This document shows, one piece after another, positions 23,436-33,383 of a stretch of DNA of 34,491 nucleotides. How positions within the stretch are numbered: position 1 is the stretch's first letter; the number at the start of each line of letters is the position of its first letter. The notes beneath the pieces were generated by a model. That model was not told the DNA's origin and ran no database searches. It saw only the letters and a program-made list of their open reading frames with translations. The DNA comes from Sideroxydans sp. (GTDB lineage: Bacteria; Pseudomonadota; Gammaproteobacteria; Burkholderiales; Gallionellaceae), in contig PNNY01000007.1 in assembly GCA_013824485.1 (NCBI GenBank), positions 1-34,491 of the forward strand, written 5' to 3'. Position numbers and translations under genes: made by a program.

Positions 23436-24668
23436 TCAGCTGGGTATCTGCTTGAGCGTGTGAGCTACTTGATCGAACTCCGAATGTGACAGCAGCACTT
23501 GTTGTATCTGGGCTGGACTGAGTGCACGTTCTGGTAATTCAGCGACTAGTTGTTCGATCGCATTCTTCTGATCCGTATGAAAGCGTAGCAACATCGTGGC
23601 GACCTGCTCGCGCGAGGCGAGATCGAGTTTGAAATCCACATCGATACGTCCTGGGCGGATGAGCGCAGGGTCGAGTAGTTCACGGTGATTGGTGGTGAGG
23701 AAGATGATGCGACCTTCCTGTGCTGCCACGCCGTCAAGTGCGTTCAACAAACCACTGAAACTTACTGCGATACGGTCATCCTGTTTTTGGCGCGCAGCAA
23801 AGAAGGCATCCACGTCTTCGATCAAAATGAGTGAACGCGCGGGTGTCTTCTGCAACAGCATGGCGATAGTCTGGTCATTCAACTTGGGGTTGGTGAGCGA
23901 GAGCCAGCAAAGGTTGAGGTGCAACTCGCCTGCGAGCGCAAACGCCATGCTGGTCTTGCCGGTGCCAGGTGGTCCGTAGAGCAGATAGCCTCTGCGCCAA
24001 GGGATGCCCATCTGCGCATACCAACTGCGTTTGGAAAAGAAGCTGCGCGCATCGTCCAACAAACGTTGGCGTATCTCGCCATCCAGCACGACGGAGTCGA
24101 TGGCACGACGTGGACGTGCATCGGCCTTGCGCCAGTTCTCTGCCCAACTATCCACAGTGAACATCAGTGTATGGTCGGCCAGACGCGCGTAGGTGCGCTT
24201 CAATACATCATCTAGCAAGGTCTCCAGATAGCGGCGTGAACCGAACAGTACGTGGATGCGTAGCGTATCCACTACTTGCAAGTTCACGCTCACCTCGCGC
24301 TCAATCCACATCAAGTGTCCTTGGAACCAAAAGAGGTGGAAGCCGGGGGCTGGGCTGTAGAGCAGTTGTGGCATGCCGTTAGAACTGCTCTCTTCATCGG
24401 GGTCGGCATTCTCTTGGATGACGGTGAAGAAGCGACTGCTGCGTCCGAATGGCAGGTCGTTCAGCCAAGTGATGAGGGCACTGAACAGGTCGTTGCGGCT
24501 GTCGATGACGGCGGTGACGATGAACACGCGATTGAAATATGACCACAACATACCTGGGACTTTTCGCAGCAACGCGGCGAGCAATCCCATCAATCCCAAG
24601 ACGACCCCCCCAACGAAGAGTTGGTTCTGGAATTGCGCTTGGATGAGAGACCAGACTGAATCGAGCAT
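23436..24668 (-). CDS. BCS1-like AAA ATPase, membrane-anchored
   Basis: 410 residues. N-terminal transmembrane helix (about 17-35, LFVGGVVLGLMGLLAALL), a BCS1_N-like region (about 45-220), then a AAA domain: Walker A GPPGTGKTS (232-240), Walker B LILIEDVD (280-287), FSGLLNALDGV (304-314) and TTNHRELLDPALIRPGRID (325-343). The last two motifs are nearly those of mitochondrial BCS1, which translocates the folded Rieske iron-sulfur protein for complex III. Bacterial homologues are poorly understood. The gene follows cyaY by 17 bases in an operon with frataxin genes, which fits an iron-sulfur connection, but the client is unknown. The ribosome-binding site is weak, so translation may be coupled to cyaY. 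Confidence 0.88.
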   Translation of the reverse strand: MLDSVWSLIQAQFQNQLFVGGVVLGLMGLLAALLRKVPGMLWSYFNRVFIVTAVIDSRNDLFSALITWLNDLPFGRSSRFFTVIQENADPDEESSSNGMPQLLYSPAPGFHLFWFQGHLMWIEREVSVNLQVVDTLRIHVLFGSRRYLETLLDDVLKRTYARLADHTLMFTVDSWAENWRKADARPRRAIDSVVLDGEIRQRLLDDARSFFSKRSWYAQMGIPWRRGYLLYGPPGTGKTSMAFALAGELHLNLCWLSLTNPKLNDQTIAMLLQKTPARSLILIEDVDAFFAARQKQDDRIAVSFSGLLNALDGVAAQEGRIIFLTTNHRELLDPALIRPGRIDVDFKLDLASREQVATMLLRFHTDQKNAIEQLVAELPERALSPAQIQQVLLSHSEFDQVAHTLKQIPS

Positions 24669-24685: not shown

Positions 24686-24994
24686 TCAAAAGTGGATGTC
24701 CGCGCCTTGCTCGGCGAACAGCTCGGTGAGTTTTGAGAATAGCTCAGAGCCATCGCGTTGGCTGAGCCAATGGTCATCTTGCAACGCATAGTGGAAGCCG
24801 CCCGATTTTGCAGCGAGCCATATCTCTTGATTGGGTAGGTGGCGGTTCACGATGATCTTGTTGCCGTTCTCGAACTCGATCTCCATCACCACGCCGTTGC
24901 TGTCGTAGTCGATATCTTGGTCGCTATTGTCGTTTGCCTGTTCGATGCGTCGAAATGCTGCATCCGCCGCTACGTTGAATTCATGTTCTGTCAT
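24686..24994 (-). CDS. cyaY: Frataxin homologue CyaY
   Basis: Bacterial frataxin: binds iron and modulates IscS-dependent iron-sulfur cluster assembly. 102 residues from the start at 24994, preferred over ATG 25012 because AAGGA lies about 7 bases upstream and the product then begins MTEHEFNVAADAAFRRIE. The acidic first-helix/strand region (QANDNSDQDIDYDSNG) is intact, as is the frataxin signature NKIIVNRHLPNQEIWLAAKS with GGFHYAL. It sits between the frataxin-protease fusion (14 bases upstream) and the BCS1-like gene. cyaY beside lptM-lysA is a familiar proteobacterial arrangement. Confidence 0.93.
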   Translation of the reverse strand: MTEHEFNVAADAAFRRIEQANDNSDQDIDYDSNGVVMEIEFENGNKIIVNRHLPNQEIWLAAKSGGFHYALQDDHWLSQRDGSELFSKLTELFAEQGADIHF

Positions 24995-25008
24995 GGTATG
25001 TCCTTGTG

Positions 25009-26322
25009 TCATTTGCGACCGATCAGCATCATGCTGTCGCTCTGGCTCACTTGAAAATTACGCAATACGTTCGCGCCGAGCAGGTTGATCTCCATATTCG
25101 GCATCACGGCGACGGTGATGTTCTGCAACACGAAGTTACCTAGCGTCATGTTGGGGACGAGGGCGATGCAACCCGTCGCCGTTCCGTTCGCAGTTTGGAA
25201 CTGTACCTCTTTGCAGTTGTGGATGCCTGCTTGTCGAGCGATGTCGCTGGAGATGGAAGTGACCGAGGCGCCTGTGTCGACCATGAATGTGACAGGCGTA
25301 TTCGCGATCGAACCTGGAACATAGAAATGCCCATTGCCTTGTCGCTGTACCACCATGCTGCCGTCGCCCGAGAAGGTGGGAGCTGGGGGCGGGGCTTCGG
25401 TGGTGATCGTTTTGACGAATAGCTGAAAATCATCCATGTCCGCACCTGACGATTGCATGGCGAGTTGCATCGGTTTGTCCATCTGCACGGTCAGCGATTT
25501 ATCGAACTTCATCAGGTGACCGTCAGAGAATCCAGCGCGCGGGTCACACCAAATATTGCCTGCGCTGAAAAGCATGTCGTACTGTCCCGCAGGGAGATGG
25601 AGTGAGGTCGTCTGTCTGGCATGAACTAAGATGGAAAGCGATGGGATGACTGTCTTTGGTTCAGCAAGTATCAACAGTAACGGGTAGGCATGATCGTTCT
25701 TTAGCGTGATCTCGGCATCGTTCGGTCCGTCGGTGCGTAGGTTGTTCGAGAAGATGTTGATGCTACCGTTTGCAGGCAAGGACGCTTCACACTTTCGAGT
25801 GCCGCTAGTCGCTTCGGCGGTCATGTATTGGACATTTGTCTCGCCCTTGGCGTTATTTTCGGCTGGAGGCTGGCCGAGGCGTTGCGCGAACCAAAAGCCA
25901 GCCAGCACGGCGAGCGTCAGAATGAGCAGATTACGCAAGCCGTGACTTTGAGGCGACTCGTCCATGCTTGGAGCGATCACTGTGCGTTGCTTGGGGGCGC
26001 TGTTCGGCGCTCTGGCGTTGATTGCTGAACTGGTGATGGTGTGCTCAATGAGCGTCGCAACGCTTTGTGTGAGTTCACCTTGGTCGTGCGCACGCCACTC
26101 GCCATTCTTGAGATCGAACTCTGTGCCGCCAGCGCGCGAAGCGAGCCAAGCCTTGTTCGAGTGAGGATCGATGTTGATGACGATGCGTTGCCCATCGGCG
26201 AATTCCAAGCGCAAGGCATTGCCGTTTCTGTCCACATGGATGTCCGCCCCGCGCGCACGCACCATCGCTTCGATATGCTCGAATAAGGTGCTAGCAAGGC
26301 TGGAGTGAGTGCTTTCCGTCAT
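25009..26322 (-). CDS. Fusion: frataxin-like domain, transmembrane helix, beta-rich domain, retropepsin-like aspartic protease
   Basis: 437 residues in one uninterrupted frame. Residues about 8-95 resemble CyaY: EFADGQRIVINIDP, KAWLASRAGGTEFDL, GEWRAHDQGEL align with the signature of the neighbouring cyaY product. A Pro/Ser/Gln linker leads to a transmembrane helix (131-147, NLLILTLAVLAGFWFAQ). Residues about 165-305 form a beta-rich domain with Cys178 and Cys259. Residues about 325-437 match single-domain clan AA proteases: FYVPGSIANTPVTFMVDTGA with catalytic Asp349 (DTGA 349-352), and INLLGANVLRNF near the end. Likely topology is cytoplasmic frataxin domain and periplasmic protease. The frataxin part lacks the acidic iron-binding patch. 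First gene of the operon with cyaY and the BCS1-like ATPase. Family combination not known to me. Confidence 0.88.
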   Translation of the reverse strand: MTESTHSSLASTLFEHIEAMVRARGADIHVDRNGNALRLEFADGQRIVINIDPHSNKAWLASRAGGTEFDLKNGEWRAHDQGELTQSVATLIEHTITSSAINARAPNSAPKQRTVIAPSMDESPQSHGLRNLLILTLAVLAGFWFAQRLGQPPAENNAKGETNVQYMTAEATSGTRKCEASLPANGSINIFSNNLRTDGPNDAEITLKNDHAYPLLLILAEPKTVIPSLSILVHARQTTSLHLPAGQYDMLFSAGNIWCDPRAGFSDGHLMKFDKSLTVQMDKPMQLAMQSSGADMDDFQLFVKTITTEAPPPAPTFSGDGSMVVQRQGNGHFYVPGSIANTPVTFMVDTGASVTSISSDIARQAGIHNCKEVQFQTANGTATGCIALVPNMTLGNFVLQNITVAVMPNMEINLLGANVLRNFQVSQSDSMMLIGRK

Positions 26323-26362: not shown

Positions 26363-26488
26363 ATGCGTACCGTCTGCATTATGTTGCTGTTGCTCGTCGC
26401 CTTGCAAGGATGCGGGCGAAAAGGGCCATTGTTCTTGCCGTCCCCTGCTGCCCATAACGATCCATCAGTCCAATCAGAACGAGCTTAG
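26363..26488 (+). CDS. lptM: LPS-assembly lipoprotein LptM (YifL/LppL type)
   Basis: A 41-residue lipoprotein. The signal peptide MRTVCIMLLLLVALQGC ends in a lipobox with Cys17, followed by GRKGPLFLPSP, the CGxKGPLYxP pattern of LptM. LptM is an outer-membrane lipoprotein that assists LptD maturation. Seven bases separate it from lysA, its usual partner. The reading frame is short but the motif is diagnostic. The start codon has only a weak GAG-type ribosome-binding site. Confidence 0.9.
   Translation: MRTVCIMLLLLVALQGCGRKGPLFLPSPAAHNDPSVQSERA
26378..26407 (-). promoter_or_regulatory. Candidate promoter of the frataxin-protease/cyaY/BCS1 operon
   Basis: On the minus strand, TTGCAA (26402-26407), 18-base spacer, CATAAT (26378-26383); both hexamers are five of six to consensus. 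It lies inside the lptM coding region, since only 40 bases separate the divergent start codons. Confidence 0.4.
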
Positions 26489-26495
26489 TAAACCT

Positions 26496-27743
26496 ATGAC
26501 CCCTTATTTCAAATATCAACAAGAGCAACTGTGCGTGGAAGATGTTTCTTTGCAAGACATCGCCGAGCGTTTCGGCACTCCCTGTTATGTCTATTCACAC
26601 GCTGCCTTGACCGACGGCTATCGTCAATTCGCCGATGCGTTCAAGAGTCGTGAGCACCTTATCTGCTACGCAGTGAAAGCCAACTCCAGTTTGGCTATCC
26701 TCAACTTGTTCGCAAAGCTAGGTGCTGGATTCGATATCGTTTCTGGCGGAGAGCTGCAACGCGTGTTGGCGGCAGGTGGTACGGCCAACAAGGTGGTGTT
26801 CTCGGGCGTAGGAAAATCCGAGGTGGAAATGAGGGTGGCATTGGAAGCGGGGATACTTTGCTTCAACGTCGAATCGGAGCCGGAGCTCGCTAGGCTTAAT
26901 GCAGTGGCGGGCGCGATGGGCAAGATCGCGCCGATCAGTTTGCGCGTGAATCCCGATGTGGATGCCAAGACTCACCCCTACATCTCCACAGGCCTCAAGC
27001 AAAACAAATTTGGCGTGGCCTATACCGAGGCTTTGGCTATCTATCGCAAAGCGGCAGGCATGGCGCACATCAAGATCACGGGGATGGATTGTCATATCGG
27101 TTCGCAACTCACTGAGACCAGTCCGTTCATCGCAGCGGCGGAGAAGGTGTTGGCACTGGTCGATCAATTGGCGGTGGAAGGTATCGTTTTGGAGCATCTC
27201 GATCTGGGTGGTGGTTTGGGGATTCGCTATGACGATGAGACTCCACCCTGCATCGCCGAGTACGCAAAGGCATTGCTGACCGCACTGCACGGCCGTTCTG
27301 AGAAGCTGATTGTCGAGCCGGGGAGGGTGCTGGTTGGCAATGCGGGCGTGCTGCTGACGCGCATTGAATATCTCAAACACGGCGAAGAGAAGAATTTCGC
27401 CATCGTCGATGCGGCGATGAACGACCTGATGCGCCCAGCACTTTATGATGCTTATCACGCCATCCTCCCTGTGCAGAAAAAGTCAGTGGCGAGTCGTCTC
27501 TATGACGTTGTCGGGCCGATCTGCGAGACGGGAGATTTTATTGGTCGTGGCCGTGAGATGCCCGTAGAACAAGGCGATGTGCTGGCTGTGATGTCTGCAG
27601 GTGCGTATGGAATGAGTATGAGTTCTAACTACAACACACGTCCTCGGGCGGTCGAGGTAATGACCAATCGATCGCAGATCCACGTCATCCGCGAGCGGGA
27701 AGAAGTGGCGCAATTGTTCGATGCTGAAAAAATCCTTCCGTGA
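26496..27743 (+). CDS. lysA: Diaminopimelate decarboxylase
   Basis: PLP enzyme for the last step of lysine synthesis. 415 residues, normal length. The PLP lysine is Lys61 in CYAVKANSS; other motifs are SGGELQRVL, GMDCHIGSQ, LDLGGGLGIRY, EPGRVLVGNAG and the active-site Cys343 in GPICETGDF. Co-transcribed with lptM. A perfect nine-base hairpin, GAAAAAATC / GATTTTTTC, straddles its stop codon (27726-27750). Confidence 0.97.
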   Translation: MTPYFKYQQEQLCVEDVSLQDIAERFGTPCYVYSHAALTDGYRQFADAFKSREHLICYAVKANSSLAILNLFAKLGAGFDIVSGGELQRVLAAGGTANKVVFSGVGKSEVEMRVALEAGILCFNVESEPELARLNAVAGAMGKIAPISLRVNPDVDAKTHPYISTGLKQNKFGVAYTEALAIYRKAAGMAHIKITGMDCHIGSQLTETSPFIAAAEKVLALVDQLAVEGIVLEHLDLGGGLGIRYDDETPPCIAEYAKALLTALHGRSEKLIVEPGRVLVGNAGVLLTRIEYLKHGEEKNFAIVDAAMNDLMRPALYDAYHAILPVQKKSVASRLYDVVGPICETGDFIGRGREMPVEQGDVLAVMSAGAYGMSMSSNYNTRPRAVEVMTNRSQIHVIREREEVAQLFDAEKILP

Positions 27744-30211: not shown

Positions 30212-31432
30212 TTGGGCGGTAGTCGGGGGCAAACAATCGGGTCGGTCAGTAAGCGGGGTTGCCAAGCTGTGCAGCTGGCCGCCTGCCAGATACGCGATGC
30301 ATTCCTTGGCTTGGCAGTGATTTTGATTTGCATACTCACCGCACCTGCTGCTTGGGGTGTTGGAACCGCATCTGGCCTCACTATCTCTAGTTCCGCGACC
30401 GTGAGTTATGACTTTGGGGGAAGTGTTCAGCCCCCGATTACCAAAGTGGTTTCTTTTGTGGTGGACAACAAGGTCAATATGACTGTGGTTGAGGTGGGCG
30501 GAGGAGCGACCGCTGTGATCGCCGATCCACTACTTCCTGTTACCTCAAGCGCAACCTTCACAGTGACCAATCATGGCAACACCACGCAAGACTTTGCGCT
30601 TGCGGTGGCAAATCTGGTCAATGGCACGGTTAATCCTTTCGGTGGTGCGTTGGTCGATAACTATGATGGTGGTCCATGCGCGGTAAGCAACATCGTGATT
30701 GCGGCGGGCTCGATGGGCCCCTACGCAGGTCCTGCTCAGCAGTACATCAATGCATTGGCCGCCGATAGTTCGGCGACAGTAACAGTTAGCTGCACTACGC
30801 CTGCGGCACAAGCCAACAACAGTTTGGCGGTAATCTCTCTGAAAGCGACTGCGCGAGATAATGACGGAGCCAACACCTTGGGAGCGGCGCTGGCGAACGA
30901 TCTAACGCCCGATCAGGTGAATACGGTGCAAGTGGTTTTTGTGGATGCTGCGGGTTCAGATGACGTGGCAATAGATGGTGCTTACTCCGTACGCGATGCA
31001 TTCCTTGCGGGTACGGTTATTCTCACGTTGACCAAAGAAGTTCTCGATGTGACTGATGTGAATGGACGCTTGGTCCTGAATCCCCTGCCTGGTGATTCAG
31101 CATTGATACCGAAGTCAACCCTGACCTACCGCATTACGGCTGTGATGGTAGGGCAGGGGACGGCGAACAACTTGGTCGTTAAAGACGTTCTCCCGGCAAG
31201 CTTAACTTATATGCCGGGCACCCTCTCGGTGGCCTGCGTCTCGGGTAACTTCACCGTTCCGGGAGCTTGCGGAGTGGGTGTGATTACCACGCCGCAAGTC
31301 GCTGCAAGCAAGACAGACAGTAATGTCGATGCTGACTTTGCAGATTTCACTGGCAACACCGTTTCAGTTTCGCTGGGGAATGTTGCGGTTCCGGCGAATG
31401 TCGTCATCACCTTTCGCGCAACGATTAATTGA
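30212..31432 (+). CDS. Secreted DUF11-type protein 1
   Basis: 406 residues, TTG start; the frame closes at a TAA 18 bases upstream and GGAG lies about 8 bases before the TTG, while the next candidate start (GTG 30269) would trim the basic n-region. Signal peptide with hydrophobic core FLGLAVILICILTAPAAWG, then VGTASGLTISSSATVSYDFGG. The mature part has an N-terminal beta domain shared with protein 3 (VVDNKVN, NTTQDFALAVANL, TVSCTTPAAQANNSLAVIS) and a C-terminal DUF11 domain (LTYRITAVMVGQGTANNLVVKDVLPASLTYMPG, split here only by family boundaries). DUF11 proteins are surface or extracellular adhesin-like proteins. First gene behind the sigma-54 promoter. Confidence 0.82.
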   Translation: MGGSRGQTIGSVSKRGCQAVQLAACQIRDAFLGLAVILICILTAPAAWGVGTASGLTISSSATVSYDFGGSVQPPITKVVSFVVDNKVNMTVVEVGGGATAVIADPLLPVTSSATFTVTNHGNTTQDFALAVANLVNGTVNPFGGALVDNYDGGPCAVSNIVIAAGSMGPYAGPAQQYINALAADSSATVTVSCTTPAAQANNSLAVISLKATARDNDGANTLGAALANDLTPDQVNTVQVVFVDAAGSDDVAIDGAYSVRDAFLAGTVILTLTKEVLDVTDVNGRLVLNPLPGDSALIPKSTLTYRITAVMVGQGTANNLVVKDVLPASLTYMPGTLSVACVSGNFTVPGACGVGVITTPQVAASKTDSNVDADFADFTGNTVSVSLGNVAVPANVVITFRATIN

Positions 31433-31443
31433 AGGAGGCTGTT

Positions 31444-31947
31444 ATGCGTAATTCACGTTTACTGTTCTTAGCATTGCTGTTCGCTCTGTTGGGGTTGGGC
31501 GGATTCTCTTTTGCCGCGCAGGCTGCAGATGGCGCAATCAAGGTGACCAGCATCGCCGAGGTGGAAGTGGTTACTACCGGCAAAGATGGCAAGAAATCCG
31601 TCAAACGCACGCCTCCTGGCAAAGCTGTTCCAGGCACTGAAGTGATCTTCACCAACATCTTTGAAAACACCGGAAACAAAGCAGCGAGCAACATCGTTAT
31701 CGACAACCCTATCCCAGAAAATACTTTTTATAAGGCGGATAGCGCGATGGGCAAAGACTCTGTAATCACCTTTTCGGCAGATGGAGGCAAAACTTTAGGC
31801 CTTCCTGAAAAAATAAAAATCAAAGGTGCCGATGGCAAACTTAGAACTGCACTGCCAAACGAATATACCCATATCCGCTGGACCTACAAAGGTCAATTGA
31901 CGCCTGGTAAATCCAGCGAAGTCAGCTTCCGAGCGGTCATCAAATAA
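31444..31947 (+). CDS. Secreted single-domain DUF11-like protein 2
   Basis: 167 residues from ATG 31444, which has GGAGG five bases upstream; the frame is open 15 bases further but that start lies at the previous stop. Signal peptide LLFLALLFALLGLGGFSFAA, cleaved after AQA. The mature part is one Ig-like domain resembling the DUF11 fold: PGTEVIFTNIFENTGNKAAS, NIVIDNPIPENTFY, and HIRWTYKGQLTPGKSSEVSF. It follows protein 1 by 11 bases, so the two are co-translated. Probably periplasmic or extracellular; no anchor motif seen. Confidence 0.82.
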   Translation: MRNSRLLFLALLFALLGLGGFSFAAQAADGAIKVTSIAEVEVVTTGKDGKKSVKRTPPGKAVPGTEVIFTNIFENTGNKAASNIVIDNPIPENTFYKADSAMGKDSVITFSADGGKTLGLPEKIKIKGADGKLRTALPNEYTHIRWTYKGQLTPGKSSEVSFRAVIK

Positions 31948-31985
31948 AGAATAGCTATTGTGAATAGACACCTATCGAGTTACCC

Positions 31986-32074
31986 CGGGCGTTACGCGAT
32001 GCCCGAACCGATGACGGATCCACCAGTGATCCGTCTTCCTGTTTCTGGGCACGGCCCGCCGATCCGGGAGGGCC
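31986..32074 (+). ncRNA. Structured GC-rich RNA segment between DUF11 genes 2 and 3
   Basis: Three consecutive hairpins in the 218-base gap: CGGGC/GCCCG (31986-32005), GACGGATC/GATCCGTC with a CACCAGT loop (32013-32035) and GGCCC/GGGCC (32053-32074). The segment is GC-rich, whereas the following 90 bases before gene 3 are AT-rich. No T run follows. It could be a processing site, an attenuator or a cis-regulatory RNA. No known riboswitch recognised. Confidence 0.4.
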
Positions 32075-32165
32075 CCTCATGAAAAGTAGATAAGCAGCAC
32101 AGGTTTTAGAAGTGAAAAGTAAGTTTTGCAGTTTATTGAGTTGTTAATTTTTAAGGAGAAACATA

Positions 32166-33383
32166 ATGAAACGAACGAATGCGAGTCAGCATCCCAAGTT
32201 CGCGGCACTGTTGGCTAGTGCAGCGTTGCTTGGTTTGGTCTCACAAAGCGCACTGGCGGCGGGTACGGCTTCCGGTACCTCCATCAGCAACACGGCAACC
32301 TTGGCGTATAGCGTGGGTGCGGTTACTCAAACACCGATTACCTCTGCGGCGGCGGCTTTCGTGGTGGATAACAAAGTCAATCTGATCGTTGCTGAATTGG
32401 GCGGTGCTGCGACAACCGTGATTCCTGATCCAACACTGGGCACCGTATCGACATCGACCTTCACTGTGACCAACACCGGTAACACTACGCAAGACTTTAG
32501 CCTTGCGGTGGCTGACCTGGCGAATGGCACAGCGAACCCCTTCGGCGGTGCGTTGACCGACAACTACAACAGCACTCCAGCATGTACTGTGACCAACATC
32601 GTGGTGGCAGCAGGCTCGATGGGTGCATACACTGCAGGCGATTCGCACATCAATGCGCTGACTGCAGATAGCTCGGCTACCGTTACGGTGAGTTGTACTA
32701 CACCTGCGGCGCAAGCTAACAACAGCTTGGCAGTGATCTCGCTGACCGCGACAGCATTTGCGGATGATGCGGCGAACACGCTGGGTGGTGTTTTGGCGAA
32801 CGATACGGGTGTTGATGTTCCTGGCACCGTGCAGATCGTCTTCGCAGACGTCGCTGGCTCGGATGATGCAGCGTTGAGCGGCAGCCATTCCGCACGTGAT
32901 GCCTTCGTGGTGCAAACCGCAGTGTTGTCAGTTTCCAAAGTGGCGACGGTGATCTGTGATCCGGCGAACGGCGGCAAAGACATAGCCAATCCGAAGAACA
33001 TCCCGGGTGCGTACGTGCAATACGCCATCACCATCAGCAACACAGGTACGGCAGCAGCAACACTGAGCACCGTGACCGATGCCTTGCAAGCACAGTTGAC
33101 CTTTGATACTGCACTGATCAGTGGTGCTGGTGCTGCAACCAATTGCGCGGCGGGTTTGCAGTCCTTGTCGGCAACGGGTTTTGGTGCACTGCGCGGTACA
33201 GGTGCAACGACCTATGCTGCACCAGGTTTGGCAACTCAAGACGTGACTGCGGGTGCAACGACTTCTGGTCAGAACGTGACCATCAACTTTGCCACCTTGG
33301 CAGGTACGGCTTACGGCGCGGCTGATGCCGTGTTGCCAGCAAACGGTTTTGTCACGGTTTATTTCAACGCATTCGTGCAATAA
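32166..33383 (+). CDS. Secreted DUF11-type protein 3
   Basis: 405 residues. AAGGAG lies 7 bases before the ATG. Signal peptide MKRTNASQHPKFAALLASAALLGLVSQSALA, reported here in parts: basic n-region to Lys11, core FAALLASAALLGLV, cleavage near ALA-AGTASG. Mature start GTASGTSISNTATLAYSVG is a near copy of protein 1, as are the FVVDNKVN, NTGNTTQDFSLAVADL and TVSCTTPAAQANNSLAVIS stretches. The C-terminal half carries a DUF11 domain (YVQYAITISNTGTAAATLS). Very rich in Ala, Thr and Ser, poor in Lys. Same transcript as proteins 2 and 4 by spacing, unless the hairpin segment upstream terminates. Confidence 0.84.
   Translation: MKRTNASQHPKFAALLASAALLGLVSQSALAAGTASGTSISNTATLAYSVGAVTQTPITSAAAAFVVDNKVNLIVAELGGAATTVIPDPTLGTVSTSTFTVTNTGNTTQDFSLAVADLANGTANPFGGALTDNYNSTPACTVTNIVVAAGSMGAYTAGDSHINALTADSSATVTVSCTTPAAQANNSLAVISLTATAFADDAANTLGGVLANDTGVDVPGTVQIVFADVAGSDDAALSGSHSARDAFVVQTAVLSVSKVATVICDPANGGKDIANPKNIPGAYVQYAITISNTGTAAATLSTVTDALQAQLTFDTALISGAGAATNCAAGLQSLSATGFGALRGTGATTYAAPGLATQDVTAGATTSGQNVTINFATLAGTAYGAADAVLPANGFVTVYFNAFVQ

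Follow-up and report, generated by a model that had tools for sequence, protein, structure and literature searches.

The 34,491-nucleotide stretch of Sideroxydans sp. DNA analysed here (contig PNNY01000007.1 of GenBank assembly GCA_013824485.1, hereafter the window) encodes on its minus strand, at positions 25009..26322, a protein of 437 amino acids (P0001) in which a frataxin domain is joined in a single open frame to a membrane-anchored, retropepsin-like aspartic protease. A first-pass annotation, made from the sequence alone, had described this frame, leaving its strand unstated, as a CyaY-like domain followed by a single membrane helix, a two-cysteine beta-rich domain and a DTGA protease, and this layout is borne out. 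The fusion is a conserved, real architecture, present at full length in 29 of 158 Gallionellaceae genomes. It also appears to be new: no description of such a fusion was found in the open-access literature searched, which was covered in part, in line with the annotation's remark that it knew of no frataxin-protease protein. Judging from the alignments and a structure model, the fused domain keeps the frataxin fold, but the acidic ridge that serves iron and IscS in CyaY is mostly gone. We tentatively propose, with a probability that falls somewhat short of even, that the protein is a protease anchored in the inner membrane, probably facing the periplasm, whose cytoplasmic domain of frataxin fold has been neofunctionalised for docking or control.

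The frataxin/CyaY-like domain occupies residues 1-98 (26029..26322, on the minus strand like every part of the gene). Residues 1-95 match Frataxin_Cyay (PF01491) of Pfam with 44.2 bits against a cut-off of 21.3, and the NCBIfam CyaY model TIGR03421 gives 60.6 bits against 53.25; since the latter is an equivalog cut-off, annotation may call the fusion CyaY. At the other end, profiles and alignment place a clan AA retropepsin-like protease domain at residues 320-436 (25015..25365). It matches gag-asp_proteas of Pfam over residues 335-422 (74 bits, cut-off 28.2) and TIGR02281 of NCBIfam over residues 323-433 (72.6 bits, cut-off 57.95), contains the invariant cysteines C370 and C385, and carries its catalytic D-T-G-A motif, seen in the sequence and in the alignment of fusions, at residues 349-352 (25267..25278). 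The curated cut-offs are exceeded at both ends of the protein, as the annotation had expected. In a PDB search, the best matches of the N-terminus were CyaY chains and the best protease match of the C-terminus was the ApRick protease, which we take to belong to the Rickettsia APRc family. Between the two ends lie a variable, probably cytoplasmic linker recognised in the alignment (residues 99-126, 25945..26028), a transmembrane helix (residues about 128-147, 25882..25941; helix 127-146 in the model, and hydropathy) and the beta-rich middle domain (residues about 175-312, 25387..25800) with the invariant cysteines C178 and C259, for which no Pfam match was found in the window protein or in five homologues scanned. 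An AlphaFold model of the fusion, built from a five-row alignment, has a mean predicted local distance difference test score (pLDDT) of 42.8 overall and is poor outside residues 11-100. Those residues show the helix-sheet-helix order of frataxin, with block-mean pLDDT of 65-82, and their first four Foldseek matches are all CyaY (1ew4, 4jpd, 4hs5 and 4lp1), the first three with target-length template modelling scores (TM-scores) of 0.45-0.61. The middle domain modelled separately reached a pLDDT of 46, too poor for a fold search.

Two ways in which this description might have failed, chance similarity of the frataxin part and a chimeric assembly, are ruled out. The former is incompatible with the profile scores, the CyaY structure matches and the fact that in all 26 full-length fusions of the window's genus (window included) the fused frame itself scores above the Pfam cut-off for frataxin; the latter is incompatible with a full-length fusion in 29 genomes. 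The 28 orthologues besides the window are 40-78% identical to the window protein. The family search included the window's own genome, and genus sizes come from separate genus-level searches: the fusion is found in 26 of 34 genomes of the window's genus and in 3 of 19 of the genus g12. Among genomes of the window's genus that are at least 90% complete it is present in 21 of 21; six genomes without it are 53-80% complete, and two more (G150 and G153) have only a C-terminal fragment of the fusion at a contig end. Named records matching the fusion query are Gallionellaceae and Sideroxydans metagenome-assembled genomes (MAGs) and one record labelled only Gammaproteobacteria; they largely duplicate the 158-genome set and add nothing to the count of 29. 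We infer that the window's genus (g1) is Sideroxydans-like. Outside this genus, no fusion was among the matches listed from samples of the order (399 genomes, E 1e-10; the four genomes of the window's genus in it were the only ones with the fusion), the class (369 genomes, E 1e-32) and the phylum (398 genomes, E 1e-32); these samples overlap and at most four candidates were scored per genome, so rare fusions could escape.

The fused domain differs from CyaY chiefly on its acidic surface. The comparison set 28 fused domains against three groups of CyaY: 26 from the genomes that carry these fusions, 9 from non-fusion relatives in the family and 20 from other families, the last group leaning towards similar CyaY because it was chosen from the best order-search matches. 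The CyaY of L055 is truncated at a contig end, and the two copies in the window, fused and separate, are outside these sets. The ridge was defined by the equivalents of E. coli CyaY residues E18, E19, D22, D23, D27, D29, D31 and E33, D25 falling in a gap. A nuclear magnetic resonance (NMR) study placed IscS binding on the acidic surface of CyaY, where iron is also bound, and its contact list includes seven of the eight positions, E18 being the exception (PMC5346568). At the eight positions the fused domains carry 1.82 acidic residues (range 0-4, n=28), against 5.88 in CyaY of the same genomes (4-7, n=26), 4.11 in non-fusion relatives (3-5, n=9) and 4.60 in other families (3-7, n=20). Lysine or arginine amounts to 1.50 there, versus 0.04, 0.11 and 0.10 in the three CyaY sets. 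Moreover, the equivalent of R53 is lost, the His70 position is glutamate in 28/28 fused domains and the Thr40 position is lysine or arginine in 25/28. L39, F41, D43, Q45, W59, A61, E68 and W76 are among the residues that do not vary across the 29 aligned fusions; of those listed here, E68 is the sole one that differs from all CyaY groups compared, D43 being common in CyaY and Q45 common to the CyaY of non-fusion relatives. On these alignments, the CyaY manner of binding iron or IscS has probably been lost from the fused frataxin part.

The fusion protein is under purifying selection, as judged from ratios of nonsynonymous to synonymous divergence (dN/dS) computed with our own Nei-Gojobori script for ten chosen pairs, some of them with saturated dS values. 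The ratio is 0.11-0.31 for the frataxin domain, 0.04-0.30 for the middle domain and 0.03-0.29 for the protease, and 0.20-0.76 for the linker, which is long and variable between conserved flanking domains. The range for frataxin suggests that the fused domain is under selection and hardly a relic. The DTGA motif is intact in 26 of 29 aligned fusions. The other three (L024, L027 and L028, from G124, G143 and G123) show different residues at this site, retain the four cysteines and an LLG motif, and form one clade (support 100/95). Their protease dN/dS is 0.16 for the pair L027/L028 and 0.18 and 0.29 for the two pairs with L024, and the frataxin domain of the catalytically dead pair L027/L028 has 0.11, making the three candidate pseudoproteases under purifying selection. 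All three genomes also encode a different type of DTGA protein, whose start is DUF4124-like and which occurs as well in at least 5 of 23 genomes of the genus with an intact fusion (eight regions fetched). In the other DTGA retropepsin-like proteins of the genus (L109-L116), a DUF4124-like stretch accompanies a signal-peptide-like N-terminus (of these, L109 was scanned with Pfam).

Several observations bear on the orientation of the protein in the membrane. Exactly four cysteines follow the helix in 29/29 fusions, and 0-1 precede it. Among relatives of the Pseudomonas retropepsin RloA, a cysteine pair is conserved in periplasmic and not in cytosolic proteins (PMC12239564), and the membrane-anchored retropepsin APRc of Rickettsia is predicted to be N-in/C-out (PMC4140852). 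The four cysteines, together with a homologue (L044) that begins with a signal-peptide-like stretch, favour export of the C-terminal part, so that an N-in/C-out topology with this part in the periplasm is likely. A second membrane stretch at about residues 215-233, suggested by hydropathy, was rejected: the model shows beta strands there instead.

Under the proposed docking or control role, the former CyaY, with its frataxin fold kept, would stay in the cytoplasm as the N-terminal part, and the C-terminal beta-rich domain and single-DTGA protease would face the periplasm. The fused frataxin would bind a cytoplasmic partner through its altered beta-sheet face, and this binding would position or dimerise the periplasmic protease, providing inside-to-outside control. 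In the clade without the DTG motif, only the binding role would be left. Some data weigh against this proposal. First, the ranges of acidic ridge residues overlap (up to 4 in fused domains, down to 3 in CyaY of non-fusion genomes), D29 is retained in 23/28 fused domains, and CyaY itself commonly has most of the residues that are invariant in the fused domain. Second, the equivalents of IscU-facing residues are largely retained (Trp61 28/28, Asn52 27/28, Ala63 28/28, Gly68 26/28), and with this core kept, contact with IscU is still conceivable. Third, the helix is weak in the most distant fusion (L030), where the hydropathy of every 19-residue window stays below 1.4, and the hydrophobic maximum of many rows lies at about residue 215, within predicted strands. 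Fourth, lysine plus arginine per 15 residues is 2.1 before the helix and 1.6 after it; of the 29 rows, 15 have the higher count before the helix, 7 after it and 7 the same on both sides. This is a weak lean in the expected direction that leaves the topology undecided by charge. Finally, the middle and protease domains are without a confident model.

The retained IscU-facing residues, which belong to the contact list of PMC5346568, also speak for the role suggested by the first-pass annotation, in which cytoplasmic iron or Isc status would still be read out by the frataxin domain, which would switch the periplasmic protease accordingly. The frataxin fold and family score are consistent with such coupling, as are the gene cluster common to the fusion and cyaY and the presence, among the named relatives, of Sideroxydans MAGs from a group called iron oxidisers in paper abstracts. 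Its main support has been lost, however, with the disappearance of most of the ridge, now partly basic, and of the R53 and H70 equivalents. In addition, one clade retains the protein with a dead protease motif, and two g12 genomes (G112, 100% complete, and G104, 85% complete) have the fusion with no CyaY detected besides the fused frataxin. By contrast, the known frataxin-rhodanese-glutaredoxin fusion keeps most of the acidic residues (PMC2679010). We therefore regard iron or iron-sulphur coupling as unlikely. The ridge loss, the changed and fixed face and the selection on the domain favour a changed binding role over iron sensing, making a repurposed docking or control domain probably the stronger reading. 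An obligate pairing of the basic first helix of the fusion with the acidic ridge of the co-encoded CyaY was also considered; with no CyaY detected in G112 and G104, it could be optional at most.

Retropepsins act as homodimers (PMC12239564), and the single-DTGA protease of the fusion should need dimerisation. The frataxin domain might then be simply a stable cytoplasmic knob, sensing nothing, that anchors two protease chains or helps them meet. A long variable linker between conserved domains would suit this possibility, which we nevertheless consider improbable: homologues without frataxin manage without such a knob, and the fixed glutamate at the His70 position suggests a specific contact, even if that contact could itself be one of a dimer.

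These homologues provide clues to how the fusion arose. In the order search, four proteins of family f16 (L040-L043) align with the window protein from about the membrane helix to the end, and one of f37 (L044), which possesses the cysteines of the middle domain, aligns from residue 198 onwards; all five lack frataxin, are 27-32% identical to the window protein over the middle and protease domains and share the same four cysteines. The phylum search added two proteins of f247 (L107 and L108) matching from about residue 215, whose reading frames (L117 and L118) begin with a membrane-helix-like stretch, and the class search added one (L106, G749) whose match covers only residues 302-435. In L040-L044 and L117/L118, a short N-terminal tail or a signal-peptide-like start stands at the N-terminus. 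By eye, the frataxin-less genes lie at other genomic places than the fusion. The f16 genomes look like Nitrosomonas-type ammonia oxidisers, given amoA in three of the four that carry the frataxin-less protein. No frataxin-less form was among the Gallionellaceae matches listed from the 158-genome search (to E about 5e-11). The existence of homologues with membrane helix, middle domain and protease suggests that frataxin joined an older membrane protease. In a tree of the C-terminal part, the 29 fusions form one clade against seven frataxin-less rows (support 100/99); if the root is placed accordingly, frataxin would most simply have been added to a pre-existing membrane protease.

The site of this addition is indicated by gene order. 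Directly downstream of the fusion is a normal cyaY (24686..25012, minus), whose first ATG overlaps the fusion stop codon (ATGA) and which has a family-like start, MTEHEF, at 24994. On the opposite side lptM (26363..26488, plus) and lysA (26496..27743, plus) diverge from the fusion; these neighbours are the ones that the first-pass annotation named. In the nine non-fusion Gallionellaceae loci fetched (eight from g6, one from g5), lysA and cyaY are divergent neighbours without exception, 147-232 bp apart between tblastn matches. Of the 29 fusion genomes, 26 have the fusion between these two genes (the window and 25 of 28 fetched loci); in G106 one further gene lies between the fusion and cyaY. 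We infer that a tandem cyaY copy was joined in frame to the older protease in an ancestor of the Sideroxydans-like lineage. The annotation had likewise suggested local duplication of cyaY followed by fusion, having missed the older family that provided the partner. Gene order agrees with the duplication; the frataxin tree (103 columns) gives no proof of it, with the fused domains forming one long-branched clade not nested inside Gallionellaceae CyaY. Gln45, present in 28/28 fused domains and in 9/9 CyaY of non-fusion Gallionellaceae, and in 0/26 CyaY of the same genomes and 0/20 of other families, may be a single-site hint, and no more, of an origin from Gallionellaceae cyaY.

The fusion begins 173 bp from the lysA start, where cyaY begins in the relatives. 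This would also fit a passive relic, in which the protease acquired the promoter and ribosome start of cyaY through the fusion, frataxin being kept only as a folded leader. Such a history appears very improbable in view of the low dN/dS and fixed residues of the domain, and in G104 and G112 frataxin and protease moved jointly from the cyaY site to a different locus, whose surroundings include phosphatase-like, ubiG-like and gyrA-like genes (names by eye). The C-terminal tree groups these two with G129 and the window at a support under the starred level (84/77), and in the frataxin tree, which has no row for the window, they group with G129 (100/92). The grouping in both trees and the changed locus point to horizontal transfer of the fusion into g12. 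As a separate observation on this genus, 16 of its 19 genomes are without a frataxin/CyaY match, as are 14 of the 15 that are at least 90% complete. In a more far-reaching version of the repurposing idea, the frataxin copy would have given up iron binding and become the cytoplasmic receptor of a transmembrane protease that signals from inside to outside; the protein would be a catalytically dead tether in one clade and would have spread horizontally to relatives without CyaY. Taken as a whole, this version is possible and rather doubtful.

Comparison with known systems shows parallels for each half of the protein. The fusion resembles CyaY and frataxin (PF01491, TIGR03421) in fold, order of secondary structure, the Trp61 and Asn52 equivalents and scores above both cut-offs, and differs in its largely lost ridge, its changed R53 and H70 equivalents and its tethering to a membrane protein. 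With TIGR02281 proteases of clan AA it shares the DTGA and LLG motifs; unlike them, it adds the two-cysteine beta-rich domain and frataxin, and one of its clades is without the catalytic motif. SpoIIGA has its protease part in the cytoplasm and its signal outside, which is the reverse of the arrangement proposed for the fusion, and to our knowledge neither SpoIIGA nor PerP has a frataxin domain. Both are retroviral-type aspartic proteases in bacterial regulation and are named in PMC4140852, where APRc, membrane-anchored like the fusion, is given three predicted helices. RloA and RimB of Pseudomonas are likewise bacterial retropepsin-like dimers, whose secreted forms carry a disulphide; unlike the fusion, RloA has a signal peptide, RimB is cytosolic, the substrates are glutamate-rich and the portion of the text available mentions no frataxin (PMC12239564). 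The frataxin-rhodanese-glutaredoxin fusion also holds a frataxin domain within a multidomain bacterial protein, there combined with sulphur and redox domains, with no protease in the part of the description available (PMC2679010).

Frataxin has been studied mainly as an iron-sulphur assembly factor, and a repurposed lineage would show that its fold can be reused. The fusions may also constitute a natural experiment in which the IscU-facing surface is separable from the iron ridge. The middle domain appears to be an undescribed domain common to iron oxidisers and Nitrosomonas-like genomes.

Elsewhere in the window, a BCS1-like AAA ATPase lies directly downstream of cyaY (23436-24668, minus; BCS1_N 94 bits, AAA 76 bits). 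It has the same position in G131 (L059) and G148 (L061) and was not found in the remaining fusion loci that were fetched, some of them ending near cyaY. In mitochondria, BCS1 handles the Rieske iron-sulphur protein. Finally, the plus strand at 30212-33383 encodes two exported-looking proteins of about 405 amino acids (30212-31432 and 32166-33383), alike by eye, with a smaller protein (31429-31947) between them.
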